Origin: Schaalia radingae
GTDB lineage: Bacteria; Actinomycetota; Actinomycetes; Actinomycetales; Actinomycetaceae
Length of the DNA: 64,000 nucleotides
Assembly: GCF_900106055.1 (NCBI RefSeq)
Contig: NZ_LT629792.1
Coordinates: forward strand, 1,674,001-1,738,000
Direction: 5' to 3'
This document shows, piece by piece, positions 14,841 through 51,884 of this stretch. Numbering within the stretch: the stretch's first letter is position 1; every line of letters begins with the position of its first letter. The notes under the pieces were generated by a model that was given only the letters and a program-made list of their open reading frames with translations, was not told the DNA's origin and did no database searches. Made by a program: the position numbers and the translations under genes.

Positions 14841-15795
14841 CTCTTTTCGTCCCCGAGGTTCGATTTGGCGTGGTGGTGGGTTCGTTGTATGGCTGTGGGT
14901 GGTGCGTGTGGTTGGGTGGGTGGGCTTGTGACCTGTGGGAATGCTTGGCCAGTGGGGTCAGTGCGGGTCCTTTGGGCTGTGGATGTGTGTCGAGTTCGAA
15001 CCTGGGGGAACATGCCCGGGGCCTCGTGTGATCGTCGCTCGTGTGATTGTCGAGGGTAGACAGGGGTCGTGCTTTGCGGGGATGGCTCAAGCTTGCGCTT
15101 TCTTGTGGGCTGAAGGGTTTCGTGTGGGGGTGCGCGTGCGCATACAGCGTCTTCCCACATTGTGGGAATTCTTGTTCCCGCATGCTTGTCCTCCCCTCTT
15201 TCCCCGTCTGTCGATCTGAAGAGGGTTCTGCTGCTAACCGCTTACACGGACGAGGCGTTTGCACTGGTCAGGAGTAACCTCACGGGAGGTAGAGCCGTGA
15301 TGAATCCAGTGAGAGGCTTCCAGATCGACAGGTGGGTGCAGAAAGAGTTTGGTCCACAATTATGAATTGGGGCTGTACGGGCAGCAGTACTGTTCCGTAG
15401 TGTGGTGCACATGACACGACGATCACGACGCGGCACGCTGCTGGTTCCAGTATTGGCTGGCTTGCTCACTCTGGCTGCATGCAACCACGGGGAAGGCGGG
15501 AACCAGAGTGGCAGCGCTCAAAGCCCTCAATCCCACAGCGGGTCACACGAAGCGGCGCAAAGCATACCCATGTCCGGTGAGTACCCGATTTTACCCAACG
15601 GGAAGCTCGGCAGGCCCGTGGACTGGGTGGAACCACACGAACCACAACTACCCAGTGCTGCCACCAACATGGACGCGTTCGGGGCACGCTACTTCGCCGA
15701 GTACTACCTCAACCTCCTCGCATACTCCATCAACACCGGCAACACCACCACCCTCAAAAAAGTCAGCAGCCCAGAATGCAAAGTCTGCCAATCAT
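14841..15795 (+). repeat. Cassette block A, copy 1 (leader plus lipoprotein N-terminal half)
   Basis: Near-identical in inverted orientation to 50940-51884. It covers about 560 bases of G/T-rich non-coding leader, the lipoprotein start and the lipoprotein domain up to KVCQSY. Differences include a 15-base indel near 15033, scattered substitutions, a 9-base indel in the signal peptide and a diverged linker after the lipobox (about 15485-15565). Confidence 0.93.
15300..15365 (+). CDS. Possible 21-residue leader peptide upstream of the lipoprotein
   Basis: A short frame beginning MNPVRGFQIDRW and ending EFGPQL lies 45 bases before the lipoprotein ATG, with GGGAGG about ten bases upstream. The same frame is intact in copy 2 (51377-51442). 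Because the whole region is nearly identical between copies, this conservation is weak evidence for translation. It could also be read as the end of a 67-codon frame starting at 15162. Confidence 0.25.
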   Translation: MNPVRGFQIDRWVQKEFGPQL

Positions 15796-16067
15796 ATGTC
15801 AGAAAGATCGAAAACTTAGATAGCAATACCGACTGGGTCGACAGTATGAGATTCAAAATCGATTCATTCAATTCAGTGGAGCTGTATCCAGAAGAGTCGG
15901 ATCTATATCTCGTCGAATTTCTGGCAACTTCCGCTCCCTATGTCGTGTACTTAGATGGAGAACTGACTTCGTTTGAAGAGGAAAGAGTGCTCATCCAACT
16001 TGACCTCCGTCAGGCCAATTCTGAGTTCACTGTAAATAGGTTCTTTGCGAAAGAAAGAGAGGACTAA
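15411..16067 (+). CDS. DUF6318-family lipoprotein, cassette copy 1
   Basis: About 218 residues from the ATG at 15411 (GTG codons lie just upstream). The basic N-terminus MTRRSRRG, a hydrophobic helix and the lipobox LAAC predict a lipid-anchored surface protein. A Ser/Gly/Gln-rich linker follows. The core, from IPMSGEYP through GARYFAEYYLNLLAYSINTGN to VSSPECKVCQSY, matches the DUF6318 lipoproteins of Actinomycetaceae; function unknown. The C-terminal third is A/T-richer than its surroundings and unrelated to the same region of copy 2 (50642-51331). The stop lies 4 bases before the next ATG, so the two genes are coupled. Confidence 0.8.
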   Translation: MTRRSRRGTLLVPVLAGLLTLAACNHGEGGNQSGSAQSPQSHSGSHEAAQSIPMSGEYPILPNGKLGRPVDWVEPHEPQLPSAATNMDAFGARYFAEYYLNLLAYSINTGNTTTLKKVSSPECKVCQSYVRKIENLDSNTDWVDSMRFKIDSFNSVELYPEESDLYLVEFLATSAPYVVYLDGELTSFEEERVLIQLDLRQANSEFTVNRFFAKERED

Positions 16068-16071
16068 AAAT

Positions 16072-16920
16072 ATGCGTTTTGCGGCAATCTCTTTACTTTG
16101 TTTATCTCTCGCTTTGAGCCTCCCATCGGAATTCGCAGGCGACCCGGACGAAGGAAACTTCAGCACCGCCGCAACTAGTGCTTCAGAAGGCGAGCTACAA
16201 GTTGAGGTTTCCATCAAACAGACTGTCTCAACATCGGGATCCGAAGGCACTGCATACAACCTTGGAACTTCTAGTGTTAGCCAAGGTGGTGTGGTTGAGG
16301 TTGTTGAGGGGCCGGTTGGTGGGTTTCGTGTACCGGGCTGGCAGGTGCGCTGCAAGATCGGCACCGGCACAGCCGGCGCCACACCAGCAGACAAATGCAC
16401 CCCACCACCAACAGAAAAACCTGAAGGAAAAGAACCAGACCAGCCCGCCACTCCGTCAACCGACACCATCGTGCGCACAGCCCTAAACACCATCACCCTA
16501 CGCGGCGCAGGCCTGACCATCCAACCACACCAACACGCCTTCACCGAAGTGCCCTCCAACATCTACGCCGCCACCCCCACCCAAACCCACACCCTCACCG
16601 TCTTCAACCACACCGTCACCCTCACCCTTCACGCCTCCACCTACACATTCGACTTCAACGACCACACCCCACCACTGGTCACCACCACCCCAGGAAACCC
16701 CTACCCCAACATGGTGCACACACACTCATGGCAAAACGAATCACCCCACCAAACCGTCACACTGACCACCACGTGGGACGTCACACTAACCAACCCGTTC
16801 ACCGGCACCACGCACACCATCCCTAGCATTACAAGCACAAGAGAAACCAGCGCCCCATTCCTGTTAACCAAACCCCACCAAGTCCTCACCGACCACGCCG
16901 AAAAAACCCACGGACACTAA
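16072..16920 (+). CDS. Secreted protein of unknown function, cassette copy 1
   Basis: 282 residues with a signal peptide (MRFAAISLLCLSLALSLPSEFAG) and an AGAGAGGA ribosome site. Residues 24 to about 72 are unique to this copy. From VVEVVEGPVGGFRVPGW to the end it is virtually identical to the protein at 49800-50645. That region has two Cys (VRCKIG, ADKCTPPP) likely to form a disulfide, a Pro/Glu-rich linker, and a Thr/His-rich, probably beta-rich domain (THTLTVFNHTVTLTLHAS). No known enzyme motif was recognised. Codons in the shared part end almost always in C. Always paired with a DUF6318 lipoprotein here, so a joint surface role is inferred. Confidence 0.75.
   Translation: MRFAAISLLCLSLALSLPSEFAGDPDEGNFSTAATSASEGELQVEVSIKQTVSTSGSEGTAYNLGTSSVSQGGVVEVVEGPVGGFRVPGWQVRCKIGTGTAGATPADKCTPPPTEKPEGKEPDQPATPSTDTIVRTALNTITLRGAGLTIQPHQHAFTEVPSNIYAATPTQTHTLTVFNHTVTLTLHASTYTFDFNDHTPPLVTTTPGNPYPNMVHTHSWQNESPHQTVTLTTTWDVTLTNPFTGTTHTIPSITSTRETSAPFLLTKPHQVLTDHAEKTHGH
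16286..16920 (+). repeat. Cassette block B, copy 1
   Basis: About 635 bases nearly identical to the reverse complement of 49800-50435; I saw essentially one difference (Val versus Ala in the TPSTDTI-V/A-RTALN segment). The similarity stops exactly at the stop codon of both genes. Confidence 0.95.
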
Positions 16921-17140
16921 ACAGGAAGAACAGTCGCAAACGAACAGCACAAGCAACGCAACACTATTCAGCAAAACTAGCAACGCACCACACGTGAACG
17001 TTTGAAACTCAGCAGTATCGTGCGGGCGATCCAGGGTCATGAGGTAGAAGACTGGCGAGCGTCGTCAGATCGGAAAGAGCCTATTTTTTCAGGAGATCTG
17101 GCTCGCACACACTGCTGTTCTTCAACGGGTGTGATTGCAA
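16921..17140. other. Intergenic region between cassette copy 1 and exoA
   Basis: 220 bases between converging genes. No gene is visible. A weak GAGCC/GGCTC inverted repeat around 17082-17104 with a T-run in its loop might be a terminator for either side. Confidence 0.5.
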
Positions 17141-17962
17141 TTAATCGAACTCATACGACACGGTCAAAGCGGCATGGTCTGACATGCGCGCATCGTAAGA
17201 GGCGGCGCGATCAATCGAAAAGGACCGTGCCTTTTGCGCCAGATCCGGCGTCACAAACTGATAATCAATGCGCCACCCGGCGTCATTATCGAATGCTTTG
17301 CCTCGCCACGACCACCACGTGTATGGGCCTTGGACATCCCCCGCAAGCTCGCGGACGGTGTCGCACCAGCCACCCTCGGCCCATGACGACACAAAGGCAA
17401 TTTCCTCGTCGAGCACTCCGGCACGCTTGTTGTGGTTCGGCTTCCAGTTCTTGATGTCCAATTCGGAGCGAACGATGTTGAAATCTCCCGCAACGAGAGC
17501 TTGACGCCCCTTCGCCGAATTCGCAGCTTTCAACAGTTCGCTCATGCGCGCTGACACCCTCGGCAGGTGCGCCATCTTGGCATCCTGCTTCGGTGTATCC
17601 TTCTCGCCCGAATGGAAATACGCCGACACAAGCGTCAGTGGAGTGGCAAATTCAAGGTCTACTTCCAGCCAGCGACCCGAATCCACATCACTTTCCTGGT
17701 CGTCCAGCGTTGTCCGCACGTCTCCGATCAGCGCCTCGTTCTCAATCGGGACAGCGACTGCTACGCCCGCACGCCCTTTCGCCCGCGATGGCACGGCCAC
17801 AACATGCCACTGCGACCCCAGAATCTCACGCGTCACTTCTTCCGGCGCGCGCACCTCCTGCATCAGGAGGACGTCGGGGTGCTGGCGGTTCAACCAGTCG
17901 TTCAGTCCTCGTTTAGCGGCAGCGCGGATCCCGTTGAGGTTGACAGTCGTGACGTTCAGCAT
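17141..17962 (-). CDS. Exodeoxyribonuclease III / AP endonuclease
   Basis: 273 residues of the Xth/ExoA family. It nicks DNA at abasic sites and degrades 3' ends in base-excision repair. All signature pieces are present: NLNGIRAA, LLMQEVRAPEE with the metal-binding Glu, ALVAGDFNIVRSELDIKN with catalytic Asp and Asn, GWRIDYQFVTP, and the C-terminal SDHAALTVSY Asp-His pair. The ATG at 17960-17962 follows AGAGG. A palindromic repeat lies about 26 bases upstream, between this gene and the divergent metal exporter. Confidence 0.95.
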   Translation of the reverse strand: MLNVTTVNLNGIRAAAKRGLNDWLNRQHPDVLLMQEVRAPEEVTREILGSQWHVVAVPSRAKGRAGVAVAVPIENEALIGDVRTTLDDQESDVDSGRWLEVDLEFATPLTLVSAYFHSGEKDTPKQDAKMAHLPRVSARMSELLKAANSAKGRQALVAGDFNIVRSELDIKNWKPNHNKRAGVLDEEIAFVSSWAEGGWCDTVRELAGDVQGPYTWWSWRGKAFDNDAGWRIDYQFVTPDLAQKARSFSIDRAASYDARMSDHAALTVSYEFD

Positions 17963-17987
17963 GCCTCTATTGTGCCCGAAACTTCAC

Positions 17988-18015
17988 CGAGTGGTCGCTT
18001 GCAAGCGACCACTCG
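17988..18015. repeat. Palindromic repeat, copy 3
   Basis: A perfect 28-base palindrome: CGAGTGGTCGC, then TTGCAA, then GCGACCACTCG. Here it lies between divergent genes (exoA and the CDF exporter), a position where a transcription terminator would make no sense. Confidence 0.95.
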
Positions 18016-18069
18016 ACATCACGGACTTGGCAAGGCAGCGAGAAATGGCTACTCTATAGCCAACCAAGG

Positions 18070-18086
18070 ATACCCCCTTGGGGTAT
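18070..18086. promoter_or_regulatory. CsoR-family-type operator upstream of the CDF exporter
   Basis: ATACCCCCTTGGGGTAT is an inverted repeat of ATACCCC around CTT. It closely resembles operators of CsoR-family repressors (TACCCC/GGGGTA), which sense Cu(I) and, in relatives, other metals or sulfur species. It lies 32 bases before the exporter ATG and just after a TATAGC hexamer that could be the -10. No csoR-like gene is in the window. Confidence 0.65.
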
Positions 18087-18118
18087 TGATTTTCGTTGTC
18101 ACCTAGCGAAAGGACGCC

Positions 18119-19126
18119 ATGTCGCCCGATGTCGAGCATCGCGATTGCTGCGAGGAGTCGGAGCAATCATCACCCCACAGCAGGCCCACATCCGCCGAGA
18201 AGTCGCTTGCAAGCGACCACTCGCATTCACATTCGCACTCGCATGCTGCTAGTTCCCGAGGGCGTCTGATTGCAGCCTTGTCCATTACGGCAACTGTCCT
18301 CCTCATCGAGACAATCGGCGGCGCACTTTCAGGATCACTCGCACTTTTTGCAGATGCCGGCCACATGGCGGTGGACTCCATCGGGCTGGTGATCGCGCTG
18401 ATTGCGGCTCACCTGTCACTGCGCCCGCGCACCGACAGATTCACGTGGGGCCTGGCACGATCCGAAGTGGTCGCAGCGGCACTGCAGGCAGGTATGCTCG
18501 TCGTGATCTGCGTGATAATCGCATATGAAGCCATCGGACGCTTCATGAACCCCGAGCAACTCGACACCCGCATCATGCTGATCGTCGGTATCCTCGGCCT
18601 GGCTGCAAACGTCGCTTCCCTACTCGTGCTGATGGGGGGCCGCAGTGCCTCGCTGAACATGCGCGCAGCATTCCTCGAGGTTGCCACCGACGCGTTAGGG
18701 TCGGTCGCGGTCATCATCGGCGCGGTCGTCGCCCATTTCAGCGGATGGCTCCAAGCGGATGCCCTTGCTTCACTGCTCATCGCGTGCATGATGGCTCCGA
18801 GGGCGATCACGCTTTTACGCCGCTCGGTGGCGATCCTGATGGAGGAAACACCACCCGGCCTGGAACTGACAACGGTGCGTGAGCATATGCTCCATGTTCA
18901 AGGAGTCGAAGACGTGCATGACCTGCATGCCTCGACCATTGCGACAGGAGTGATAGCCCTGACGGCTCACGTCACCGTCCAACCCGAGTTGAACGAGCAC
19001 GAGCGATCCGACATTTTGCACACACTCGCCAGCTGCGTACAGGAACACTTTCCCGTCACGATCACGCATTCCACGTTCCAGTTGGAAAGTCCCCAGCACC
19101 GCGAACATGAACAGTTAAGGCACTAA
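18119..19126 (+). CDS. Cation diffusion facilitator (CDF) metal exporter
   Basis: 335 residues. CDF proteins export divalent metals such as Zn by proton antiport. A His-rich N-terminus (DHSHSHSHSH) precedes six membrane helices and a cytoplasmic C-terminal domain of about 90 residues (MLHVQGVEDVHDLHAS). Helix 2 has the metal site DAGHMAVD (H-x3-D). Helix 5 reads EVATDALGS, with Glu where Zn-type CDFs such as CzcD usually have His. The ATG at 18119 follows GAAAGGA. A CsoR-type operator just upstream suggests metal control. A degenerate copy of the palindromic repeat is embedded in the N-terminal codons (about 18195-18223). Substrate unknown; Zn is the default guess. Confidence 0.9.
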   Translation: MSPDVEHRDCCEESEQSSPHSRPTSAEKSLASDHSHSHSHSHAASSRGRLIAALSITATVLLIETIGGALSGSLALFADAGHMAVDSIGLVIALIAAHLSLRPRTDRFTWGLARSEVVAAALQAGMLVVICVIIAYEAIGRFMNPEQLDTRIMLIVGILGLAANVASLLVLMGGRSASLNMRAAFLEVATDALGSVAVIIGAVVAHFSGWLQADALASLLIACMMAPRAITLLRRSVAILMEETPPGLELTTVREHMLHVQGVEDVHDLHASTIATGVIALTAHVTVQPELNEHERSDILHTLASCVQEHFPVTITHSTFQLESPQHREHEQLRH

Positions 19127-19142
19127 GCTCACACCTGCGCAT

Positions 19143-20054
19143 TTACACCTGAGCGGAGAATCCCGCCTTTCGCTCAGCCATTTCGACCACGTTCGCCAAC
19201 AGGAGGGCACGGGTCATCGGCCCGACGCCACCGGGATTCGGTGACAGCCATGCCGCAACACGATCAACTCCGTCGGCCACATCGCCATGCAGCCGCGCAC
19301 GGCCATCAGCTTCCGTCACGCGCGAAACGCCCACATCCAGCACCGCCGCACCTTCACGCACCATGTCAGCGGTGATCAGTCCCGGCGAGCCAGCCGCAGC
19401 CACAACCACGTCAGCATTGCGTACCTGTTCAGCGAGGTTGAGCGTGCCCGTATGGCACAGCGTCACGGTCGCGTTGATGTTCTTACGCGTCAGCAGCAAT
19501 CCGATCGAACGGCCGACGGTCACTCCCCTGCCAACTACGCACACATCCGCGCCGTTGAGTTCCACGCCGTAGCGTTCCAACAGCTCAATGACGGCGCGCG
19601 GCGTACACGGAAGGGGCGAGGTGATGTCACCCGCCGCGCGCAGTACCAGGCGGCCCAGGTTCATCGGATGCAGGCCGTCAGCGTCCTTATCCGGATCGAT
19701 GCGCTCCAACACGGCCTGGGAATCGACCCCGGCGGGTAGCGGAAGCTGCACAATGAAACCCGTGCAGGCAGGATCAGCGTTGAGCTGGTCGACAGCCTGC
19801 TCGATATCAGCCTGAGAGGCCGACTCGGGCAAGTCAATGCGAATCGACTCGAGGCCAACCTCCGCACAGTCACGGTGTTTGCCGGCAACATAGGTCACTG
19901 ACCCGGGATCTTCACCCACCAGGATTGTTCCCAGTCCTGCATGAACACCGGCTTCACGCAGACGTGAGATGCGCTCAGCAAGCTCGCCCTTTATAGCAGC
20001 AGCGGTGGCTTTCCCATCCAGTACCTGTGCGGCACCTTCCCACGGCGCTCTCAC
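19143..20054 (-). CDS. folD: Methylenetetrahydrofolate dehydrogenase / cyclohydrolase FolD
   Basis: 303 residues. Interconverts 5,10-methylene-, methenyl- and 10-formyl-tetrahydrofolate. Family motifs: [24 protein letters not shown] with the catalytic Lys, [60 protein letters not shown] and the C-terminal [14 protein letters not shown]. The only good start is the GTG at 20052-20054, which overlaps the glyA stop (GTGA), so it is translationally coupled to glyA. Confidence 0.97.
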
Positions 20055-21343
20055 TGCTGCAGCCCGTCGTACAACGGGAAGGCATCAGTCAGTGCACGCA
20101 CGCGCGCCTGCAGACCCTCCATATCCACTGTCTCCTTGGAGGCCGCCTGAACCAGTGCGGTCGCGATGATGTCGGCAACTTCGGTGAACTCCTCATCACC
20201 AAAACCGCGCGTAGCCAGCGCCGGCGTTCCGATACGCAGACCGGATGTGACTGCCGGTGGGCGCGGGTCAAACGGCACAGCATTGCGATTGACCGTGATG
20301 CCGACTTCGTGCAGCAGATCCTCAGCCTGCTTGCCGTCAAGAGTTGAATCAACCAGGTCAACGAGCACCAGGTGCACATCGGTGCCGCCGGTGACCAGCT
20401 TGATGCCGACCTTCTTCGCATCGTCGCGTCCCAGACGCTCTGCAAGTTTCTGCGCGCCAGCAAGAGTTCTGACCTGGCGGTCCTTGAACTCCGGGGTCTG
20501 AGCCACTTTCATTGCTACGGCCTTGGCAGCCACCACATGCATCAGCGGGCCACCCTGCTGACCTGGGAACACAGCAGAATTCAGCTTCTTGCCCCACTGC
20601 TCGCCGCGCGCGGACAGGATCATGCCGGAGCGGGGACCCCCCAGTGTCTTGTGGACCGTCGTGGTCACCACGTCGGCGTGGGGCAGTGGGCTTGGGTGCA
20701 GTCCGGCTGCAACGAGGCCGGCAAAGTGCGCCATGTCAACCCACAGCGCAGCGCCAACCTCGTCGGCAATGCTGCGGAAAGCAGCAAAGTCAAGGTGACG
20801 AGGATAGGCCGACCAGCCGGCAATGATCACACGGGGACGCTCACGCAGCGCCACTTCACGCACCTGGTCAGGCTCGATACGCATTGTTGTGCGGTCAACT
20901 TCGTATGCGGTGGCGTGGTACATCTTGCCGGAAAAGTTGATGCGCATTCCGTGTGTCAGGTGGCCGCCGTGAGCCAAGGACAGACCCAAAATCGTGTCCC
21001 CCGGTTTTGCCATCGCCATGAGCGCGGCGGCATTGGCCTGCGCGCCTGAGTGTGGCTGCACGTTGACGAAATCGGCACCGAACACTTTCTTGGCGCGTTC
21101 AATTGCGAGACTTTCAGCAACGTCCACTGCCTCGCACCCGCCGTAGTAGCGGCGTCCCGGGTATCCTTCGGCGTACTTGTTGGTCAGAACTGATCCCTGA
21201 GCCTGCAGGACTGCACGCGGGACAAAGTTTTCCGACGCGATCATTTCAAGGGTGGCGCGTTGACGGTTCAGCTCATCATCCAGCACCTTTGCGATGTCAG
21301 GATCGAGTTCGGCCAACGTATGGGAGTTGAGAGAATCACTCAT
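20051..21343 (-). CDS. glyA: Serine hydroxymethyltransferase
   Basis: 430 residues from [10 protein letters not shown], with GGAG five bases before the ATG at 21341-21343. A PLP enzyme that converts serine and tetrahydrofolate to glycine and 5,10-methylene-THF. Motifs: [54 protein letters not shown], and [18 protein letters not shown] with the PLP-binding Lys. Forms an operon with folD. The frame stays open for another 43 codons upstream without family resemblance. The 200 bases before it hold no riboswitch I could recognise. Confidence 0.98.
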
Positions 21344-21545
21344 TGCTGCTCCAGTTTTCAATTCGCTTGTCTGGCTTTCACTATTGGCGAGGATGGCCCC
21401 AGCCGTTCCTCGCTCGGTTGCGTGGCCCAGGCGGGCGACCGCGACAACCCTATTTCGCTCCCCGGTGGTCATCCCACCTGTTCGCCAGTTGCGACAGATT
21501 CATCTTATCAACTGTGTTCCGCTGCGGAAACCGCCAGTGCGGACA

Positions 21546-22424
21546 CTAGCGGGAGAATACGACGGTTCGGTTGCCGTTCATCAGGACACGGCGTTCAGCA
21601 TGCCAACGCACTGCCTGCGCGAGGACTCGGCGTTCAACATCCTGCCCCAGCTCCACCATGTCGCGGGTGGAATCGGCGTGCGTGACTCGCGTGACGTCCT
21701 GCTCGATGATCGGCCCTTCGTCCAGGTCGGCTGTAACGTAGTGCGCGGTTGCGCCGATGAGTTTGACGCCGCGTTCGTGAGCCTGGGCGTATGGGCGCGC
21801 GCCTTTGAACGAAGGCAGGAATGAGTGGTGAATATTGATGACGCGTCCGGCCATTTCACGGCATACCGAATCAGACAGGATCTGCATATAGCGGGCCAGG
21901 ACGACCAATTCAACCTGCTCGGACTTGATGAGGTCAAGAAGTTCTGCCTCGGCGCGCACTTTTGAATCCTTGGTGACCGGAATACTGAGAAAGGGGACGC
22001 CGTAGAACTGTGCGACCGGCGCGAGGTCAGGGTGGTTACCGACAACTGCAACCACTTCGATAGGCAGACCTTGAGAGCGCTGCCGATAGAGCAGGTCCGT
22101 GAGACAGTGCCCTTCGCGCGAAACCATAATGACGGTGCGAAGCGGTCGCCCCAACTGGTCGACGCGCCAGGTGGCGTTGAACTTGTCGGCGATTCGTGTC
22201 AGGCCTTCTTCGACAGGACCTCGACCGACAGGTGATTCAGCTTCCATTCGCATGAAGAACAGGCCGGTATCCGGGTCACCGAATTGCTGCGACTGAATGA
22301 TGTTGCCACCGATGTCGCTCATGATGCCGGAGGCCGCGTGAACAATTCCTGGCTGGTCCGGGCAGGAAAGAGTAATGACAAGCTTGTCGATTGTCGAGGG
22401 GGGCACTGTCGAATCATGTTCCAT
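21546..22424 (-). CDS. purU: Formyltetrahydrofolate deformylase
   Basis: 292 residues. Hydrolyses 10-formyl-THF to formate and THF, balancing the one-carbon pool. An N-terminal ACT domain (LVITLSCPDQPGIVHAASGIM) precedes the formyltransferase-like domain, with VSREGHCLTDLLYR, VGNHPDLAPVA, INIHHSFLPSFKGARPY and ATAHYVTADLDEGPIIEQ. The Asn/His/Asp catalytic triad residues lie within these motifs. It is upstream of glyA-folD on the same strand, making a folate C1 group; the 200-base gap suggests a separate promoter for glyA. Confidence 0.96.
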   Translation of the reverse strand: MEHDSTVPPSTIDKLVITLSCPDQPGIVHAASGIMSDIGGNIIQSQQFGDPDTGLFFMRMEAESPVGRGPVEEGLTRIADKFNATWRVDQLGRPLRTVIMVSREGHCLTDLLYRQRSQGLPIEVVAVVGNHPDLAPVAQFYGVPFLSIPVTKDSKVRAEAELLDLIKSEQVELVVLARYMQILSDSVCREMAGRVINIHHSFLPSFKGARPYAQAHERGVKLIGATAHYVTADLDEGPIIEQDVTRVTHADSTRDMVELGQDVERRVLAQAVRWHAERRVLMNGNRTVVFSR

Positions 22425-22491
22425 AGTCCTAAGGGTAATGATTCACAGGCACTCCGGCCTAATCCAGTCCACCGCTTCTGATACGTGGTGT

Positions 22492-22527
22492 GCGCCGAGT
22501 GGTCGCATGCATGCGACCACTCGGCGC
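22492..22527. repeat. Palindromic repeat, copy 4
   Basis: A perfect 36-base palindrome with half-site GCGCCGAGTGGTCGCATG. It lies between the amidohydrolase stop and the purU start, both on the minus strand. Confidence 0.95.
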
Positions 22528-22546
22528 CATAACGATGTGAACTCGG

Positions 22547-23875: not shown

Positions 23876-23884
23876 GTTTCCTCC

Positions 23885-25384: not shown

Positions 25385-25496
25385 TTGAATCCTTTCGATA
25401 TTGTTTCCACACTGCATCGTTGAAGTGATAACAAACTCTATCTCTGAAAACAGGGATGGCGCACCCATATTCAAGTATGCCAGTCACAGCACAAAA

Positions 25497-25562: not shown

Positions 25563-25586
25563 TCTGGACTGTCCTGCTGGCGAGAA

Positions 25587-26654
<1,068 letters not shown>

Positions 26655-40961: not shown

Positions 40962-40986
40962 GATTCAGCTGCCACGCAGACAACAA

Positions 40987-41018: not shown

Positions 41019-41050
41019 CCTGACTTCAGTCAGTGTGATTCACCAACGAA

Positions 41051-42439: not shown

Positions 42440-42599
42440 GAAAGCTCCTTGGGTGGAAAACTATGTCGTTCCTATTGTCCGTCATATTGCCCGCTTCGGC
42501 GAGGGACTTTCGTGGGACTGTCGGTGAAGCGCCTCGCACAGTCTGCCGTCGCGCGGATCGTACCTGCCCGAGCACGCTTGCTCCTCCGTCGCGCACAGG

Positions 42600-43643: not shown

Positions 43644-43832
43644 CTCATGTCCTTTCAGTCATCTCACCCTTGACCGCGCGCACCGCATGTGATTGATCAA
43701 TCATCGTCGACGGTCGAGGGGTCCAGACCGCCACGAACAGACGGCATCTGGACGCGTGACCAGCGTTCTTTCTTGAATGATAGCGTCATCAGATTCGTCA
43801 GGCGGCACTTGGTGACCTGCATAGTTTTGAAG

Positions 43833-43873
43833 TGTTTACCTTTCTGTTACACGGTGTCACCGAACTGTTGCGT
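43833..43873 (+). promoter_or_regulatory. Pho-box-like direct repeats upstream of the alkaline phosphatase
   Basis: Four related words TGTTTACC, TGTTACAC, TGTCACCG and TGTTGCGT start at 43833, 43845, 43855 and 43866, i.e. every 10-12 bases (one DNA turn). Pho boxes bound by PhoB/PhoP response regulators consist of about 11-base direct repeats of TGTCA- or GTTCACC-like words. The last unit is about 100 bases before the phosphatase ATG. The regulator itself is not in the window. Confidence 0.45.
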
Positions 43874-43972
43874 TGGGCTGCTTTGCTACAGATAGTTCGT
43901 CGTTACGCTTCTGCCTTTCCTTGCGTGCGCAGCGAAGAACATCCAGTAACACCTCCAGATGAAGGCAGGAAG

Positions 43973-46900
43973 ATGCATTCACGTCGTAATCGGCGCGTGG
44001 GTCTGGCGTGTGGAACCGGTGCTCTGGCTCTGGTTCTGACACCCCTGTGCATGGCGGCAGGTGTCGCCGACTCCCCCACGACGCATGAGACCAACAAACC
44101 AGAACAATGCACTGCATTCGACTCCAATGGCAACGTTGTTGCTCTGCAGCCGGGCGATTGCGCGCAATACGGTGTGGAGGGTCAGGGACGCACTGACGCT
44201 CACGCAAAGAACGTTATTCTCATCATCGGCGACGGCATGGGCCAGCAGGAAATCACCGCTGCTCGTAACTACCTCGTCGGCGCTGCCGGCCGTTTCGAAG
44301 GAATCGACGAGCTGACCAGTGAGGGACTGTACACTCACCACTCGGTCAACAAGGACGGCTCGTTCAACTACGTCACCGACTCAGCTGCATCGGGTACCGC
44401 ATGGGCAACAGGCACGAAGACCTACAACAATGCGATCAGCGTTGACATCAAGGGTCAGCCCGTCGCCAACCTCATCGAAGTGGCGAAGAACAAGGGCATG
44501 CGCACCGGTAACATCACGACGTCAGAGATCCAGGACGCAACACCTGCCGTCATGGGCGCACACGTGGCGTCACGCTCGTGCTACGCCCCATCCGGCAAGA
44601 AGAAAGCGAAGTGCCCCGAAGATCAGCGCGTTAACGGCGGCCTGGGCTCCATTTCCGAGCAGCTCATCGATACCCGCGCCGACATCACCCTCGGCGGTGG
44701 CGCATCATTCTTCGACACAGAGGTCATGGCTGATTCCGGCAATACGAACCCGTTCCTGACCGGTAGCGCGAAGTACAACACTACCTGGACGAAGGGCGCA
44801 AGCGTCCTCGACAATGCCAAGAACAATGGCTACCAGGTGGTGACCACCGCTGACGAACTGAATCAGGTTACCGTAGCTAACCAAGATACCCCTGTTCTGG
44901 GCCTCTTCGCACCAAGCAACATGACGACCACCTTCGCGCCGTCACAGGCCACGATTGGCGGAGCGAAGGGCGAGGCCATCCAGTGCACGAAGCAGGACAT
45001 CGGCACTGAGCCTGAACTGGAAGCCATGACCGACAAAGCTATCGAACTCCTGAACAAGGACAACGATAAGGGCTTCTTCCTCCAGATCGAGTCTGCCTCC
45101 ATCGACAAGCGCGACCACGCGTCAGACGCATGCGGCCAGATTGGTGAAACTAAGCGTCTCGACGAAGCTACCAAGGTCGCTCTCGACTTTGCTAAGAAGG
45201 ACGGCGAGACACTGGTTCTTGTCACTGCTGATCACTCTCACACCAGCCAGATCGTGGCTGATGGTTCCGACAACGTCTCCCCGGTGACGCGCCTGCTCAC
45301 CGCTGACAATTCCACCATGAGCATCGCGTATGGTACGAATGCCAGCGGGTCGCAGCAGCACACGGGCGCTCAGTTGCGCGTCGCTGCTTTCGGTCCGGGT
45401 GAGGAAAACGTTCTGGGTCAGACCGACCAAACCGACCTGTTCTTCACCATCGCCAATGCTCTGAACATGAACCCATACCTGGACCGTGCAGGCAACGGAT
45501 CCAGCGCCCGCGCAGCCGTGCCCACAGGCACGTTGACGAAGCCTGTTCCCGCTCAGGATGCATTCACCACCTGCAGGATTGTTGAAAAGGACGGCACGGT
45601 TCACGTGCCCGCAGCCGGCGAATGTTCACAGTACGGTGCAGACGGCCCGCAGCGTTCAGGTTCTGAAGGCGAAGCCAAGAACGTCATCTTGTTCATCGGA
45701 GACGGCATGGGCGATTCGGAAATCACCTCCGCGCGCAACTACCTGTACGGTGCAAACGGACGCCTGCCCGGAGTCGACAATCTCGACTACACAGGCTCCT
45801 ACACGCACTTCGCACTCAATAAGGACGGCACAGTCAACTACGTGACCGACTCGGCTGCATCCGCAACCGGATGGTCGACCGGCACGAAGACCTACAACGG
45901 CGCGATCGGTGTGGACCTGCAGGGAAATGCTGTGTCAAACCTGATGGAGAAGGCGAAAGCGGCCGGGTACAAGACCGGTAACGTCACCACCTCTGAAATC
46001 CAGGACGCCACACCTGCCGGCGCTGCCGTTCACGCACTGAACCGCAAGTGCTACGGACCTGAATACGACAAGAACAGCAGCTCCTGCCAGGGTGATGAGT
46101 ACCTGAAGCAGTTCCGTGAAAACGGCGGACTCGGATCGATCTCCGAGCAGCTCGTTGACGTGCGCGCTGACGTGACACTGGGCGGTGGCGCAAAAGCCTT
46201 CGACCAGACAGTTCAGGTTGACGGCACATGGGGCGACACCACGAAGTGGACTGCCGGCAAGTCCGTTGTCGACAACGCCAGGGACAACGGTTTCCAGGTG
46301 GTCACCACCGCCGATGAGCTTGATGCTGTCACCAAGGCCAACCAGGATGCACCTGTTCTGGGACTGTTCTCCCCCGGCAACATGCCCCGCATGTTCAACG
46401 AGACGGTTCCGACCACGGATGGCGCTTCGCTTACGGCTCAGTCCTGTGAGTTCAACCCGGAGCGCACCGCGGAGATCCCCACACTGGCAGCAATGACTAA
46501 GAAGGCCATCAACCTGCTGCAGAACGACAAGGGCTTCTTCCTGCAGGTGGAGGCAGCCTCGATCGACAAGGCCGATCATGCTGCTGACGCATGCGGCCAG
46601 ATCGGCGAGCTCGACGACCTCGACCAGGCCATCCAGGTGGCGCAGAACTGGGTCGCCACCAGCGGCCAGCCGACCTTGATTGTGGTAACCGCTGATCACG
46701 CGCATACCAGCCAGATCACCAGCGGGGGCACCGAGACATTCGGCCGCACCACCAAGCTGCGCACAGCCGATGGCTCCGACATGGTGATCAACTACGCCAA
46801 CGCTGGAAGCAACGACGATGACGTGGCTCTCGGCGGCCAGGGACACACCGGTGCACAGCTGCGCGTCGCAGCCTCCGGCTCGGGTGCTGAGAACGTTGTG

Positions 46901-47236
46901 GGTCGCACCGACCAGTCCGACCTGTACTACACGATGATCAATGCTCTTGGCTTTGATTCCGCGCCGCTGGCTGTCGATAATCAATTCGTCGCCACGTCAG
47001 AGACCCCTGACCAAGGCAAAGGAAAGGGCACCGATCCTGCCGGCGGTAAGGGTCAGGTCAAGCCCGACACCACTGGTAAGGGCCAAGGCACCGATGCTGG
47101 CGACAAGAAGTACGCTGCCAGCCGTCCGGGAATGGCACGCACCGGCTCAACCGCAGTTCCGCTCGCGGCCGCAGCTGCTGTGCTCGTCACGCTCGGCGCT
47201 GGCGCAGGTCTGTACACGCGTCGCCGCTCACACTAA
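43973..47236 (+). CDS. Double-domain PhoA-type alkaline phosphatase, probably wall-anchored
   Basis: 1087 residues from the ATG at 43973 (AGGCAGGA upstream; the frame opens 47 codons earlier without a signal). Signal peptide (residues 1-30), two complete PhoA-type phosphatase domains, then a Lys/Gly-rich linker, MARTG near residue 1054, a hydrophobic helix and a basic RRRSH tail, which is a sortase-type sorting signal. Both domains keep IGDGMG, the nucleophile Ser (TDSAAS; Ser137 and Ser627), ASIDK-DHA-DACGQIGE metal ligands, TADHSH/TADHAH and HTGAQLRVAA, so both look active. Releases phosphate from organic esters at the cell surface. Pho-box-like repeats lie upstream. A tandem duplication with C-terminal anchoring is unusual. 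Confidence 0.93.
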   Translation: MHSRRNRRVGLACGTGALALVLTPLCMAAGVADSPTTHETNKPEQCTAFDSNGNVVALQPGDCAQYGVEGQGRTDAHAKNVILIIGDGMGQQEITAARNYLVGAAGRFEGIDELTSEGLYTHHSVNKDGSFNYVTDSAASGTAWATGTKTYNNAISVDIKGQPVANLIEVAKNKGMRTGNITTSEIQDATPAVMGAHVASRSCYAPSGKKKAKCPEDQRVNGGLGSISEQLIDTRADITLGGGASFFDTEVMADSGNTNPFLTGSAKYNTTWTKGASVLDNAKNNGYQVVTTADELNQVTVANQDTPVLGLFAPSNMTTTFAPSQATIGGAKGEAIQCTKQDIGTEPELEAMTDKAIELLNKDNDKGFFLQIESASIDKRDHASDACGQIGETKRLDEATKVALDFAKKDGETLVLVTADHSHTSQIVADGSDNVSPVTRLLTADNSTMSIAYGTNASGSQQHTGAQLRVAAFGPGEENVLGQTDQTDLFFTIANALNMNPYLDRAGNGSSARAAVPTGTLTKPVPAQDAFTTCRIVEKDGTVHVPAAGECSQYGADGPQRSGSEGEAKNVILFIGDGMGDSEITSARNYLYGANGRLPGVDNLDYTGSYTHFALNKDGTVNYVTDSAASATGWSTGTKTYNGAIGVDLQGNAVSNLMEKAKAAGYKTGNVTTSEIQDATPAGAAVHALNRKCYGPEYDKNSSSCQGDEYLKQFRENGGLGSISEQLVDVRADVTLGGGAKAFDQTVQVDGTWGDTTKWTAGKSVVDNARDNGFQVVTTADELDAVTKANQDAPVLGLFSPGNMPRMFNETVPTTDGASLTAQSCEFNPERTAEIPTLAAMTKKAINLLQNDKGFFLQVEAASIDKADHAADACGQIGELDDLDQAIQVAQNWVATSGQPTLIVVTADHAHTSQITSGGTETFGRTTKLRTADGSDMVINYANAGSNDDDVALGGQGHTGAQLRVAASGSGAENVVGRTDQSDLYYTMINALGFDSAPLAVDNQFVATSETPDQGKGKGTDPAGGKGQVKPDTTGKGQGTDAGDKKYAASRPGMARTGSTAVPLAAAAAVLVTLGAGAGLYTRRRSH

Positions 47237-47315
47237 CCCCTAAGCTCCTTCACGGAGCGCTCGCCGTGCCTCAGGGGTCTCACATGCGAGTTTTCGCCCG
47301 GCGAGCTCACGCAGT

Positions 47316-47342
47316 CACCCTCGTCAATTACTGACGAGGGTG
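47316..47342 (+). terminator. Hairpin after the alkaline phosphatase gene
   Basis: CACCCTCGTCA pairs perfectly with TGACGAGGGTG over a 5-base loop, 80 bases after the stop. An ACCCCT/AGGGGT pair at about 47238-47279 precedes it. There is no strong U-run. Confidence 0.6.
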
Positions 47343-47390
47343 ACTTGCTGTCTCGAAACGATACCTGTTGTCTGAAACAAGCAGCGGAGG

Positions 47391-47546
47391 GGTGTACGAG
47401 GCTATGCAAGGGTCGGCCTTCCGTGCGCAGGCCTTAATAACGACACGCAGGCGTTTACGAGGGGCGTAGGAGCTGGCCGCCCACTGCGCGGCGCGTGTAT
47501 CTCTTAGCGGCCCGCGGGCGCTTACGAGGGCGTATAGGGGCTGACC
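47391..47546. repeat. Degenerate repeats around the 3' end of guaB3
   Basis: The word TACGAGG(G)-GTA-GG-G-TGGCC occurs three times about 61-68 bases apart, near 47393, 47455 and 47523. The last lies in the final codons of guaB3, so the region looks like decayed duplications of the gene's 3' end. Confidence 0.5.
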
Positions 47547-48646
47547 ACAACTTCGACACGCTGCAGATCCTTGACTTCCGAAAATCCGGTCGACGCCATC
47601 GTGCGCCGCAACGCGCCTACGAAGTTCAGTGAACCGTCCGCCCTGGTGGAAGGGCCGTAGAGGATCTGTTTCATCGAGCCGACTGTGCCGACGTAGGCGC
47701 GGTGGCCTCTGGGCATGTCCGGGTGGGTGGCCTCGGAGCCCCAATGCCATCCGCGGCCCGGAGCCTCCTCAGCGCGAGCCAAAGCGGCGCCCAGCATCAC
47801 CGCATCTGCACCGCAGGCAATCGCCTTAGTCACGTCGCCTGAGCGCCCAATACCACCATCGGCGATGACATGCACATATCGGCCGCCCGACTCATCCATG
47901 TAGTCACGTCGCGCGGCCGCAACATCGGCGATCGCTGTTGCGGTGGGAGCATGAACACCCAGGGACTGGCGCGTCGAATGTGCCGCTCCCCCACCAAAGC
48001 CAACCAAAACCCCCGCTGCGCCGGTACGCATGAGGTGCAGGGCAGCGGTCGTGGTGCACACGCCGCCAACGATGACCGGCACATCCAGCTCGTAAATGAA
48101 GCGCTTGAGGTTGAGCGGCTCGTGGTGAGAGGACACGTGTTCTGCGGAAACGGTGGTTCCGCGAATGACAAAGAGATCCACGCCCGCTTCGACCACCGAG
48201 CGCCAGTAGCGCTGAGTGCGTTGGGGAGACAATTTGCCGGCGACTACCACTCCGGCCTGGCGGATTTCCTGCAGGCGCGCGGTGATGAGCTCAGGCTTGA
48301 TCGGTTCGGAGTAAATCTGCTGCAGGCGTGCAATCGAGTGTTCTTCATCCAGCTGTTCAATTTCTTCCAGGACGGCGTCTGCGTCCTCGTACCGGGTCCA
48401 CAGACCGTCGAGGTCGAGCACGCCAATTCCACCGAGTTTGCCGAACTCGATCGCGGTTTTCGGACTCATCACCGAGTCCATGGGCGCTGCCATGATCGGG
48501 ATATCCACGTGGTACGCGTCAATTTGCCAGCCGACGTTGACGTCCTCAGGATCGCGGGTGCGTCTGGCTGGGATCAGTGCGATGTCATCGAGCGAATAGG
48601 CTCGCCGGCCGCGTTTTCCTCTGCCGATTTCAACTTCATAGCTCAC
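47522..48646 (-). CDS. guaB3: GuaB3-family IMP dehydrogenase/GMP reductase-related protein
   Basis: 374 residues. A TIM-barrel of the IMPDH/GMPR superfamily without CBS domains. Features: RAYSLDDIALIPARRTRDPEDV, IPIMAAPMDSVMSPKTAIEFG, VPVIVGGVCTTTAALHLMRTGA and VIADGGIGRSGDVTKAIACGADAVMLG. The loop that carries the catalytic Cys in IMPDH (GPGSICTTR) reads GGGAAHSTRQ here, without Cys, which as I recall is normal for the actinobacterial GuaB3 subfamily. Its reaction has been debated (IMPDH-like or GMP-reductase-like), so a role in guanine nucleotide balance is all that can be said. A true guaB lies 5 kb away. Confidence 0.9.
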   Translation of the reverse strand: MSYEVEIGRGKRGRRAYSLDDIALIPARRTRDPEDVNVGWQIDAYHVDIPIMAAPMDSVMSPKTAIEFGKLGGIGVLDLDGLWTRYEDADAVLEEIEQLDEEHSIARLQQIYSEPIKPELITARLQEIRQAGVVVAGKLSPQRTQRYWRSVVEAGVDLFVIRGTTVSAEHVSSHHEPLNLKRFIYELDVPVIVGGVCTTTAALHLMRTGAAGVLVGFGGGAAHSTRQSLGVHAPTATAIADVAAARRDYMDESGGRYVHVIADGGIGRSGDVTKAIACGADAVMLGAALARAEEAPGRGWHWGSEATHPDMPRGHRAYVGTVGSMKQILYGPSTRADGSLNFVGALRRTMASTGFSEVKDLQRVEVVVSPYTPS

Positions 48647-48854
48647 ACTTCGATCCTAGCTGTCCGGGTGGATGTAGTGTTCGATTCACATGAGCGCTGT
48701 CATGATAGTGCAGCTCAGCACGGGGATAGTTCACAAATGCCCACGCTTCAGTGCACACTGGACATCGACAGGCAGCACAACTAAGCGACTGACAGATCGA
48801 CCTGTCAGCGGGTGGATCAGCTCGCCAAGGGCAGCACAACAAAAGGAGCAGAAA

Positions 48855-49562
48855 ATGACGTGGACCGATGAGCCGTGGCTTGGCTTTGACCTCGAAACAA
48901 CCGGCGTCAATGTCGATGAAGACCGACTTGTCACGGCCGCCCTCGTACGTCGCGAGCACGGTGTGATGGACGCTGGAAGAGACGAGGTGCGCACGTGGCT
49001 GGCCGATCCTGGCATCGAGATTCCCGCGAGGGCGTCGGAGGTTCACGGGATTTCGACCGCGTATGCGCGCGAGCATGGCCGCCCAATCGTCGAAGTGCTT
49101 GACGAGGTTGCCTCTGCGCTGGTCGATCACTGGTCGAACGGCTTCCCGGTTGTTGCGTTTAATGGTTCGTATGACGTGAGTTTGCTTGATGCTGAGCTGC
49201 GGCGTCATGGTGCGGGCTCGCTCGCGGAACGGTTAGGGGGCGAACCCGCGCCGTTGCTGGATCCGCTCGTGCTGGATCGGGCGCTCAATCGCTATCGAAG
49301 GGGCAAACGAACGTTGGCTATTCTCGCACCGGCATACGGGGTGCCGCTGGATGAAAACGCGCACACTGCGGAAGTTGATGTTGCCATGACCTTAGATCTG
49401 TTGGCAGCGATCGCTCGCGCGTATCCGCAGATCACCACCATGAGTGGCGCCGAGGTCCATGCCTTTGAGAAGCGTGCGCACCGTGAATGGGCGATCCATT
49501 TTGAAGAATTCCTGCGCTCGAAGGGGCGTGTGGAGCACATCAACACTGAGTGGCCGCTGTAG
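48855..49562 (+). CDS. DnaQ-like 3'-5' exonuclease
   Basis: 235 residues from MTWTDEPWLGFDLETTG, with AAAGGAG before the ATG at 48855; the longer upstream frame is not supported. The exonuclease motifs are visible: Exo I FDLETTG (Asp and Glu), Exo II FNGSYDVSLLDAELRR (Asp), and Exo III HTAEVDVAMTLDL, a DEDDh arrangement with the His before the last Asp. Possibly an epsilon-like proofreading or RNase T-like enzyme; the partner is unknown. A CTGACAG/CTGTCAG hairpin at 48789-48808 lies in its leader. Divergent from guaB3. Confidence 0.9.
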   Translation: MTWTDEPWLGFDLETTGVNVDEDRLVTAALVRREHGVMDAGRDEVRTWLADPGIEIPARASEVHGISTAYAREHGRPIVEVLDEVASALVDHWSNGFPVVAFNGSYDVSLLDAELRRHGAGSLAERLGGEPAPLLDPLVLDRALNRYRRGKRTLAILAPAYGVPLDENAHTAEVDVAMTLDLLAAIARAYPQITTMSGAEVHAFEKRAHREWAIHFEEFLRSKGRVEHINTEWPL

Positions 49563-49799
49563 CCGACGGTTTACCCGCACTGTATTCGACGTTTTCACTG
49601 TCCGTCCGTGCTGGCGTGCCGCGGTGCTGTGGCCGGCCAAGTTGCAGTCTTGTCATGTTGGCATGCTGCCGACTTAGTTGTAGATGCAGCACTAGTGCCA
49701 CCTGTCACTAAGCAGATGTGCAGACTCTCTAGTTCTCTAGTCCTCTCCTCCGCTCAGTCGCTGCTTTTCCCTGTTGGCTTGGCGTTCTCTTCTCGTGGG
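49563..49799. other. Intergenic region between exonuclease and cassette copy 2
   Basis: 237 bases between converging genes. Contains CTCTAGTTCTCTAGTCCTCTCC-type short repeats near 49727-49750 but no gene, hairpin or clear terminator. Confidence 0.5.
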
Positions 49800-50435
49800 T
49801 TAGTGTCCGTGGGTTTTTTCGGCGTGGTCGGTGAGGACTTGGTGGGGTTTGGTTAACAGGAATGGGGCGCTGGTTTCTCTTGTGCTTGTAATGCTAGGGA
49901 TGGTGTGCGTGGTGCCGGTGAACGGGTTGGTTAGTGTGACGTCCCACGTGGTGGTGAGTGTGACGGTTTGGTGGGGTGATTCGTTTTGCCATGAGTGTGT
50001 GTGCACCATGTTGGGGTAGGGGTTTCCTGGGGTGGTGGTGACCAGTGGTGGGGTGTGGTCGTTGAAGTCGAATGTGTAGGTGGAGGCGTGAAGGGTGAGG
50101 GTGACGGTGTGGTTGAAGACGGTGAGGGTGTGGGTTTGGGTGGGGGTGGCGGCGTAGATGTTGGAGGGCACTTCGGTGAAGGCGTGTTGGTGTGGTTGGA
50201 TGGTCAGGCCTGCGCCGCGTAGGGTGATGGTGTTCAGGGCTGTGCGTGCGATGGTGTCGGTTGACGGAGTGGCGGGCTGGTCTGGTTCTTTTCCTTCAGG
50301 TTTTTCTGTTGGTGGTGGGGTGCATTTGTCTGCTGGTGTGGCGCCGGCTGTGCCGGTGCCGATCTTGCAGCGCACCTGCCAGCCCGGTACACGAAACCCA
50401 CCAACCGGCCCCTCAACAACCTCAACCACACCACC
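49800..50435 (-). repeat. Cassette block B, copy 2
   Basis: The inverted near-identical partner of 16286-16920. It begins exactly at the stop codon of the secreted protein gene. Confidence 0.95.
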
Positions 50436-50645
50436 AGCACCAGCGGCGTCAACATTCTCCACGCCAGCACCCTCCACACCAGGCACCGACACCGCCTCAG
50501 TAAACGAAGATTCAACAGTCACACTGCCAGCCACGTCGCTCCTCACGGTGTCATCGAAGCTTTCTAAATCGCCCGGAGGCGCAACCATTGAAGGTGATAT
50601 GAGTGGAACGAACACTGCAACAATTCTGAGAGCCCTTTTTCTCAT
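49800..50645 (-). CDS. Secreted protein of unknown function, cassette copy 2
   Basis: 281 residues with signal peptide MRKRALRIVAVFVPLISPSM. Residues from about 21 to 71 (rich in Val, Ser, Glu, Gly and Ala) are unrelated to copy 1. From VVEVVEGPVGGFRVPGW onwards the protein is essentially identical to the product of 16072-16920, including the two Cys, the Pro-rich linker and the Thr/His-rich end domain. The ATG overlaps the lipoprotein stop (ATGA). The sharp change from variable to identical sequence suggests recombination or gene conversion between the two loci. No known function recognised. Confidence 0.75.
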   Translation of the reverse strand: MRKRALRIVAVFVPLISPSMVAPPGDLESFDDTVRSDVAGSVTVESSFTEAVSVPGVEGAGVENVDAAGAGGVVEVVEGPVGGFRVPGWQVRCKIGTGTAGATPADKCTPPPTEKPEGKEPDQPATPSTDTIARTALNTITLRGAGLTIQPHQHAFTEVPSNIYAATPTQTHTLTVFNHTVTLTLHASTYTFDFNDHTPPLVTTTPGNPYPNMVHTHSWQNESPHQTVTLTTTWDVTLTNPFTGTTHTIPSITSTRETSAPFLLTKPHQVLTDHAEKTHGH

Positions 50646-51331
50646 GATTGCGCTTTCTCACTCTCGTCTTCTGCAATGAAATCTTCGGCGTGATAGCTCT
50701 TAACCAGGAACGAAGAGTTCCGCTGTAGTATTTCTAATTCGATTATCTTCTGGCTTTCTAACGCCGGATGAAGCTCTCCCCCACGATATTCGACATAGGG
50801 AGCGTTCTTTGCGTGAATCTTTACGAAGTAGAGCCCTTTAGTCTGTGGGTGCGGAATCGGTTCGCCAATCCGCGTGATTGTATAGTTCTTGCCGTCAACC
50901 CATCCCCCATCCCCATACACCCTCCCAATTAGGTCGATGTATGATTGGCAGACTTTGCATTCGGGGCTGCTGACTTTTTTGAGGGTGGTGGTGTTGCCGG
51001 TGTTGATGGAATAGGCGAGGAGGTTGAGGTAGTACTCGGCGAAGTATCGCGCCCCGAACGCGTCCATGTTGGTGGCAGCACTGGGCAGTTGTGGTTCGTG
51101 TGGTTCCACCCAGTCCACGGGCCTGCCGAGCTTCCCGTCGGGCAAGACCGGGTACTCGCCCGACATGGGTATGCTGTGGGCTGCATCGCCTGACCCGCTT
51201 TGATTGGCAGAGGCTTCAATGTTGTTGCTTTGCCCGTCTTGTGCCTGGTTGCATGCAGCCAGCATGATCATTCCGGCCACTACTGGAACAAGGAGCCTGG
51301 CGTGCGTGCCGCGTCGTGATCGTCGTGTCAT
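50642..51331 (-). CDS. DUF6318-family lipoprotein, cassette copy 2
   Basis: About 229 residues from MTRRSRRGTHARLLVP, with lipobox LAAC. The block from SIPMSGEYP through FGARYFAEYYLNLLAYS to KVCQSY is nearly identical to copy 1 at 15411-16067. After that the C-terminal third (IDLIGRVYGDGGWVDG, NAPYVEYRGGELHP) is largely different, sharing only the APYV-Y-GEL pattern and general layout of the family. It overlaps the secreted protein gene by 4 bases. A lipid-anchored surface role is inferred; function unknown. Confidence 0.8.
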   Translation of the reverse strand: MTRRSRRGTHARLLVPVVAGMIMLAACNQAQDGQSNNIEASANQSGSGDAAHSIPMSGEYPVLPDGKLGRPVDWVEPHEPQLPSAATNMDAFGARYFAEYYLNLLAYSINTGNTTTLKKVSSPECKVCQSYIDLIGRVYGDGGWVDGKNYTITRIGEPIPHPQTKGLYFVKIHAKNAPYVEYRGGELHPALESQKIIELEILQRNSSFLVKSYHAEDFIAEDESEKAQS

Positions 51332-51884
51332 GTGCACCACACTACGGAACAGTACTGCTGCCCGTACAGCCCCAATTCATAATTGTGGACCAAACTCTTT
51401 CTGCACCCACCTGTCGATCTGGAAGCCTCTCACTGGATTCATCACGGCTCTACCTCCCGATAGGTAACTCCTGACCAGTGCAAACGCCTCGTCCGTGTAA
51501 GCGGTTAGCAGCAGAACCCTCTTCAGATCGACAGACGGGGAAAGAGGGGAGGACAAGCATGCGGGAACAAGAATTCCCACAATGTGGAAAGACGCTGTAT
51601 GCGCACGCGCACCCCCACACGAAACCCTTCAGCCCACAAGAAAGCACAAGCTTGAGCCATCCCCACAAAGCACGACCCCTGTCTACCCTCGACAATCACA
51701 CGAGGCCCCGGGCATGTTCCCCCAGGTTCGAACTCGACACACACCCACAGCCCAAAGGACCCGCACTGACCCCACTGGCCAAGCATTCCCACAGGTCACA
51801 AGCCCACCCACCCAACCACACGCACCACCCACAGCCTCACAACGAACCTACCGCCACGCCAAATCGAACCTCGGGGACGAAAAG
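50940..51884 (-). repeat. Cassette block A, copy 2
   Basis: The inverted near-identical partner of 14841-15795: G/T-rich leader, candidate 21-codon leader frame at 51377-51442, and lipoprotein N-terminal half. It lacks 15 bases present in copy 1 near 15033. Confidence 0.93.

Follow-up and report, generated by a model that had tools for sequence, protein, structure and literature searches.

Dispersed two-gene DUF6318 cassettes of Schaalia radingae with constant arms and divergent middles

Dispersed paralogues that share their ends and exchange their middles are known from the Hop adhesin genes babA, babB and babC of Helicobacter pylori. A system of the same kind was found in Schaalia radingae, in a window of 64,000 nt (bases 1674001-1738000 of the single-contig 2.43-Mb genome). 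Its unit is a cassette in which the gene of a DUF6318 lipoprotein is directly followed by the gene of a secreted protein, in the following termed partner. Copies A and B are located inside the window, copy C outside of it. As in bab, near-identical ends enclose a divergent middle at several loci, and the arms of cassettes in one genome resemble each other more than those at one locus in different species do, as judged from medians of overlapping ranges. Chimeric alleles are likewise represented, since five middle types occur on both N-terminal haplotypes, here counted in protein clusters and not in strain genomes. In contrast to bab, where each unit is a single gene, the middle spans two genes. 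Phase switching by CT repeats in bab has no counterpart here: in A, B and C including 600 nt upstream, no homopolymer of at least 7 nt, no dinucleotide run of at least 5 units and no 3-4-nt unit repeated four times was present. Furthermore, proteins and phylum are different. The class of mechanism is thus known from babA/babB, and the two-gene form with back-to-back variable halves appears to be undescribed. Among the titles retrieved by literature searches, judged by title and beginning of the abstract, none dealt with this system and none named DUF6318.

In Neisseria (pilE/pilS) and Borrelia (vls), a surface protein is varied by gene conversion from silent donors into one expressed copy. The cassettes resemble these systems in that a putative surface protein is varied by gene conversion, and differ in that only complete copies and no consistent G-quadruplex (G4) were found. 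According to PMC2078596, the WiSP proteins of Tropheryma whipplei are also an actinobacterial surface family with shared segments tied to recombination. Inversion and deletion are reported there, whereas this locus shows ancestral gene order and replacement of middles. The type VI effector-immunity modules of Vibrio (PMC5527308) have in common with the cassettes adjacent variable coding segments, exchange via conserved flanks, and a deviating GC content. They differ in that no toxin was recognised here, the constant arms belong to the exchanged genes themselves, and several dispersed copies exist.

Cassette structure and age of the parts

A repeat search of the window returned copy A (14835-16933, plus strand) and copy B (49787-51892, minus strand) as inverted repeats with four arm pairs of 649 nt (98% identity), 401 nt (99%), 263 nt (93%), and 203 nt (96%). 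Because of the length of these arms, a chance origin is excluded. An initial annotation of the window had described inverted, near-identical two-gene cassettes, and spacing and orientation are as claimed there. Its outer blocks of about 950 and 635 nt agree with a BLAST search of copy A (14841-16920) against the genome, in which the 5' block matched copy B with 91% (query 2-956) and the 3' block with 99% identity (query 1445-2080). When both copies were aligned, the ends matched and a middle of approximately 490-505 bp was not common to both. The genome-wide search additionally yielded a third complete cassette, C (genome positions 1821010-1822742), 83 kb past the end of the window, on the same strand as A and adjoining an rpoC-type gene. 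Its 5' and 3' blocks are 88% and 99% identical to those of A. Apart from these three complete cassettes, the genome contained one 27-bp match. Across A, B and C the outer ends are 88-99% identical, and the middle, formed by the end of the first and the start of the second gene, is near background.

In copy A, the lipoprotein gene occupies 15402-16067 with a likely start at ATG 15411, and the partner gene 16072-16920 starts with ATG, its open reading frame (ORF) being open from TTG 16045. The variable middle (15797-16284) comprises the 3' part of the former and the 5' part of the latter; the constant 3' block extends from 16285 to 16933 and contains the C-terminal half of the partner, which is possibly PKD-like. 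Copy B, on the minus strand, has the partner gene at 49800-50645 and the lipoprotein gene at 50642-51340, overlapping the partner start by 4 nt. Its middle is located at 50436-50939, its constant 3' block at 49787-50435, and its constant 5' block with leader at 50940-51892. The near-identity of A, B and C on the 3' side reaches the partner stop codon, followed by divergence.

The leader of copy A (14835-15401) is composed of a G/T-rich upstream block shared with B and a proximal part of about 215 bp shared with B and C. The G/T-rich far leader is common to the two window copies only; the alignment with C sets in about 215 bp before the lipoprotein gene begins. A search of 14600-17100 against Rfam gave no match up to an E-value of 1. 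By eye, two short overlapping frames precede the lipoprotein start at 15300-15400. The first begins with ATG 15300, preceded by GGGAGG, and its stop codon overlaps ATG 15362; the second ends with TAG at 15398. This arrangement is present in both window copies, is largely conserved in C, and may couple translation. Just upstream of copy B, positions 51913-52011 carry 3.2 copies of an imperfect 31-bp unit.

The two parts of the cassette differ strongly in age. For the constant half of the partner, comparison of A with B gave a synonymous divergence (dS) of 0.018 and a nonsynonymous divergence (dN) of 0. In both genes, the variable halves are saturated at synonymous sites, with proportions of synonymous differences (pS) of 0.76 and 0.85. 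Both values cannot result from one mutational history within the same gene; hence, the middle is older than the ends. In the blocks shared by A, B and C, 117 informative sites fell into only 15 runs, compared to a mean of 62 and a minimum of 44 in 5000 shuffles, which identifies the three copies as mosaics.

Layout in relatives and exchange between copies and genomes

DUF6318 matches were found in 27 of 34 same-genus relatives, 22 of which have at least two copies. The layout was analyzed in 40 stretches from 13 of these relatives, mostly picked for several copies (one has a single copy). Together with S. radingae, 59 lipoprotein-type and 47 partner ORFs were combined to 45 paired cassettes in 14 genomes. 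Two partner ORFs of genome G002 stayed unpaired with no lipoprotein ORF within reach, and one truncated partner of the same genome accounts for zeros in four of the 57 pairs compared. In these 57 within-genome pairs from 13 genomes, median identities were 87/82/51% for the thirds of the lipoprotein gene and 40/80/90/94% for the quarters of the partner gene; beyond the cassette they were 39-50%. The constant-variable-constant layout, defined by at least 75% identity in both arms and at most 60% in some part of the middle, was observed in 41 of the 57 pairs and was represented in 12 of the 13 genomes. The median GC content of the middles was 51.6%, compared to 65.3 and 61.5% in the arms, and was below that of both arms in 43 of the 45 cassettes. 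In three genomes, an extra diverged DUF6318-type gene follows the partner (L092:3045-3746, L094:2704-3408, and L098:5990-6754), resulting in a three-gene cassette.

Since some cassettes occupy the same chromosomal site in several species, sites could be compared for 19 cassettes from 6 genomes. Cassettes at different sites of the same genome (n=22) had median identities of 85/46/89% in 5' arm, middle, and 3' arm. At the same site in different species the medians were 66/47/76% (n=16; 19 after correction of site labels) and at unrelated sites 65/47/76% (n=133; 125 after correction). For the correction, a tandem site was united into one and 5 ambiguous pairs were excluded; the medians stayed unchanged. 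In the corrected set, whose pairs are not independent, a rank test gave P values of 3e-6 and 7e-6 for the arms and 0.63 for the middle. The ranges of the 5' arm overlap (55-93% within a genome, 51-82% at the same site between species). Had the copies evolved separately, those sharing a site should be the most similar. Instead, arms are closest to those of other copies in their own genome, which shows that they are homogenized by gene conversion in a process of concerted evolution.

Middles recur in different contexts. The lipoproteins of A and B and 28 close homologues from the protein database formed a set of 30 with 8 C-terminal types; three partial homologues were left out. Five of these types occurred on both N-terminal haplotypes (readable in 25 of the 30), and thus every pair of the five passes the four-gamete test. 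The homologues are database protein clusters, not strains, and their near-identical N-terminal halves suggest a single species. Judged from these sequences, middles are reassorted in nature among close relatives. In genome G020, three loci with unrelated surroundings have 100% identical middles.

One case extends across species. Cassettes of Actinomyces sp. HPA0247 (L113) and S. odontolytica FDAARGOS_732 (L092) share middles of 96.0% identity over 572 nt, their flanks being 67% and 87% identical; they are located at different sites with surroundings that do not match. dS is 0.16 and 0.10 in the middle and 1.09 and 0.46 in the arms. Here the middle is younger than the arms, the reverse of the order found within a genome, as predicted by block exchange. 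At another site of these two species, two aligned pieces of the downstream DNA have 85-87% identity, and a third has 70%. The ComEC-type gene that was found says little about competence, because such a gene also occurred in 10 of the 14 genomes used as controls, E. coli among them.

At the level of sequence, these comparisons demonstrate that recombination, both among copies and across genomes, has put new middles in place of old ones, and that arms have been homogenized within a genome. Sequence exchange by gene conversion, one of two outcomes considered in the initial annotation, is thereby borne out by the homogenized arms, the mosaic copies A, B and C, the reassorted middles, and the one middle shared between species.

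Several observations weigh against such an exchange as a general rule, or against its role at the cell surface. The layout was absent in 16 of the 57 pairs, among these 9 of 10 from G002, which are old and diverged copies, and all 6 from G020, of which 3 are identical throughout and 3 share mainly the 3' arm. The layout is thus general, not universal. Two loci of genome G031 with 98.6% identical middles also have downstream DNA in common and may be explained by a larger duplication. At one conserved site (site I), the middles of genomes G019 and G028 have diverged like their flanks (84%), indicating that exchange is not constant. In several species pairs the lipoprotein half is common and the partner half is not. 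Finally, the presumed surface location depends on a lipobox (LAAC in copy A) and signal peptides that were identified by eye.

Whether the two variable halves travel together was assessed in 43 of the 45 cassettes, two with very long ORFs being dropped. Similarities of the lipoprotein variable and the partner variable half were correlated above all 300 within-genome label shuffles. For the two constant halves, compared between genomes, 48 of 300 shuffles reached the observed value, and for the lipoprotein constant and the partner variable half 1 of 300. The latter link is nearly as strong, hence the association is not special to the variable halves, and physical linkage may be its whole cause.

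Gene products, proposed mechanism and competing explanations

The DUF6318 assignment of the initial annotation was confirmed by the profile PF19843, with scores of 50.6 bits (E-value 3.3e-13) for A and 57 bits (3.5e-15) for B at a curated cut-off of 23.8 bits; the lipoprotein of copy C reached 59.8 bits. The structural model of the lipoprotein has a mean predicted local distance difference test score (pLDDT) of 61.8, and of 62-90 per ten-residue block in residues 91-220. Its best PDB matches were CaMKII hub domains (E-value 4e-4, TM-score by target 0.58). With the modest confidence of the model, the folded part would be NTF2-like, with three helices followed by a sheet. According to alignment and model, the variable part starts within the third helix and includes the whole sheet. 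For the partner, no Pfam match at an E-value of 0.001 and no NCBIfam match at 0.1 were obtained. The Pfam PKD domain (PF00801) gave weak matches in 5 of 14 partner members (best E-value 0.0024), the member from the window being without a match. The partner model was poor (mean pLDDT 49) and had no PDB match at an E-value of 0.001; its variable half, a short stretch following the signal peptide, was modelled with low confidence. Sequence searches gave no useful relatives of solved structure. Carriage by phages or plasmids was dropped as an explanation, since the lipoprotein had no match in 50,697 phage records or in a scan of viral contigs, and the partner none in 72,556 plasmid records.

We consider it very probable that the cassette is a two-arm unit whose middle is exchanged by homologous recombination. 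The 5' arm would be formed by the leader and the N-terminal half of the lipoprotein, the 3' arm by the C-terminal half of the partner. Between these arms, the middle would code for the C-terminal lipoprotein half and the N-terminal partner segment back to back, so that one exchange would replace both. Ordinary RecA-type recombination could be responsible, with incoming DNA derived from siblings; no recombinase family was found among the eight neighbouring genes checked. Both proteins would be located outside the cell, where the lipoprotein may tether the partner, and antibodies, phages or neighbours might select for rare versions.

The multi-locus cassette probably encodes surface-exposed proteins, as their sequences suggest. 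Variation of a surface antigen, a phage receptor or a recognition function is a conceivable role, and the phase or antigenic variation proposed in the initial annotation likewise stays conjectural. The Schaalia/Actinomyces group is human-associated, and our finding points to a widespread surface-variation system in this group, made up of proteins of unknown function. From the layout, mutual binding of the variable halves of the two proteins is predicted. The layout also predicts which surface regions differ between strains, which could be useful for strain typing and for studies of commensal persistence. A more far-reaching version is that the variable sheet of the lipoprotein and the variable N-terminal segment of the partner form a matched lock-and-key pair. 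One conversion would then install a pre-matched specificity at any of several loci, taken from a stock of middles that sister species have in common, in a two-protein system for recognition of kin, phage or host. We regard this version as possible but rather doubtful, and slightly more so because the linkage is not confined to the variable halves.

Of the competing explanations, effector-immunity competition modules fare best, in which a toxin-like and a protecting half would be exchanged as a set. Two adjacent variable halves tending to co-travel between conserved flanks and the deviating GC content of the middles fit this idea, and flank-mediated exchange of such pairs is documented in PMC5527308. 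However, nothing of a toxin or immunity family was recognised with Pfam, PHROGs, and NCBIfam, both gene products seem by eye to be exported, and the variable halves appear as an NTF2-like sheet in a model of modest confidence and a short segment behind a signal peptide in one of low confidence. Such modules are therefore an improbable alternative.

The initial annotation also proposed that the 33 kb between A and B may flip, and inversion of this segment could switch the sequence downstream of each leader. Two long inverted repeats do exist, and in T. whipplei an inversion and a 19-kb deletion have been linked to WiSP surface genes (PMC2078596). The gene order argues against it. Copy A is flanked by a BrkB-family gene (12864-14594, plus strand) and an Exo/endonuclease/phosphatase-family gene (17141-17962, minus strand). 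To the left of copy B lies an RNase_T-type exonuclease gene (48690-49562, plus strand), and to its right the IMP dehydrogenase (IMPDH) gene (52733-54313, minus strand), with a cupin gene (52075-52500) in between. Neighbour-gene order was examined in 20 of the 34 relatives. BrkB and Exo genes were less than 5 kb apart in 11 of the 12 relatives with any BrkB match, and convergent in 10; the twelfth match was weak (E-value 1.6e-4) and located elsewhere. RNase_T and IMPDH genes were convergent and less than 5 kb apart in all 20. None of these 20 relatives had a DUF6318 match at the place of copy A or B. Thus, A and B have been added at two places within a gene order that is otherwise ancestral in S. 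radingae. Moreover, since every cassette is whole and carries a leader, crossing over within the arms during an inversion would do no more than swap ends. Variation by inversion is accordingly very unlikely, although rare inversions may occur.

The same low probability is assigned to fast variation of the pilE/vls type, with one expressed copy, silent donors and possibly a G4 trigger in the G/T-rich leader. A run of G-tracts is present in the leaders of A and B, and strict G4 motifs on the gene strand are denser upstream of cassettes (0.23/kb, 9 in 39.7 kb) than in the rest of the DNA stretches analyzed (0.07/kb, 23 in 311 kb). On the other hand, the genome has three copies, each of them complete, and no partial donor was found with the DNA of copy A, the proteins of A and B and the DUF6318 profile as queries, a search that a middle-only donor of unknown type would escape. 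Only 5 of 45 cassettes, copy B among them but neither A nor C, are preceded by a strict G4 motif on the gene strand. A G4 trigger was therefore not adopted, although the motif is about threefold denser there than elsewhere. A simple scenario in which one cassette was recently duplicated and its middle then diverged fast under selection, with no recombination involved, would account for the young ends but can practically be dismissed, since saturated middles next to a dS of 0.018 in the same gene cannot arise by mutation in one time span and middle types recur on different haplotypes and between species.

CRISPR-like arrays and a composite phosphatase frame

Arrays of near-identical repeats resembling clustered regularly interspaced short palindromic repeats (CRISPR) were noticed in three genomes: G021 (C1 348431-350465, 503842-504542, and 1006053-1006674), G031 (C1 133535-136933 and 261292-265139), and G002 (C3 33227-37571 and C5 140734-140901). 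They fall partly in the stretches L083, L084, L100, L101, and L106. In these genomes, picked because arrays had been seen there, six of the seven arrays lie less than 5 kb from a DUF6318 match. Nine strong cas1 matches were found in the genus, of which three are located at most 10 kb from DUF6318, three are not, and three are on other draft contigs. A 99.7% identical stretch with an ISL3-type transposase (L083:242-1673 and L084:6529-7960) is contained in two of the arrays, which adjoin the two G031 cassettes with near-identical middles.

Between copies A and B, a 1134-aa open frame (43832-47236) combines an alkaline phosphatase domain with a separate match to the metalloenzyme superfamily, and contains an internal repeat of 158 nt with 74% identity.

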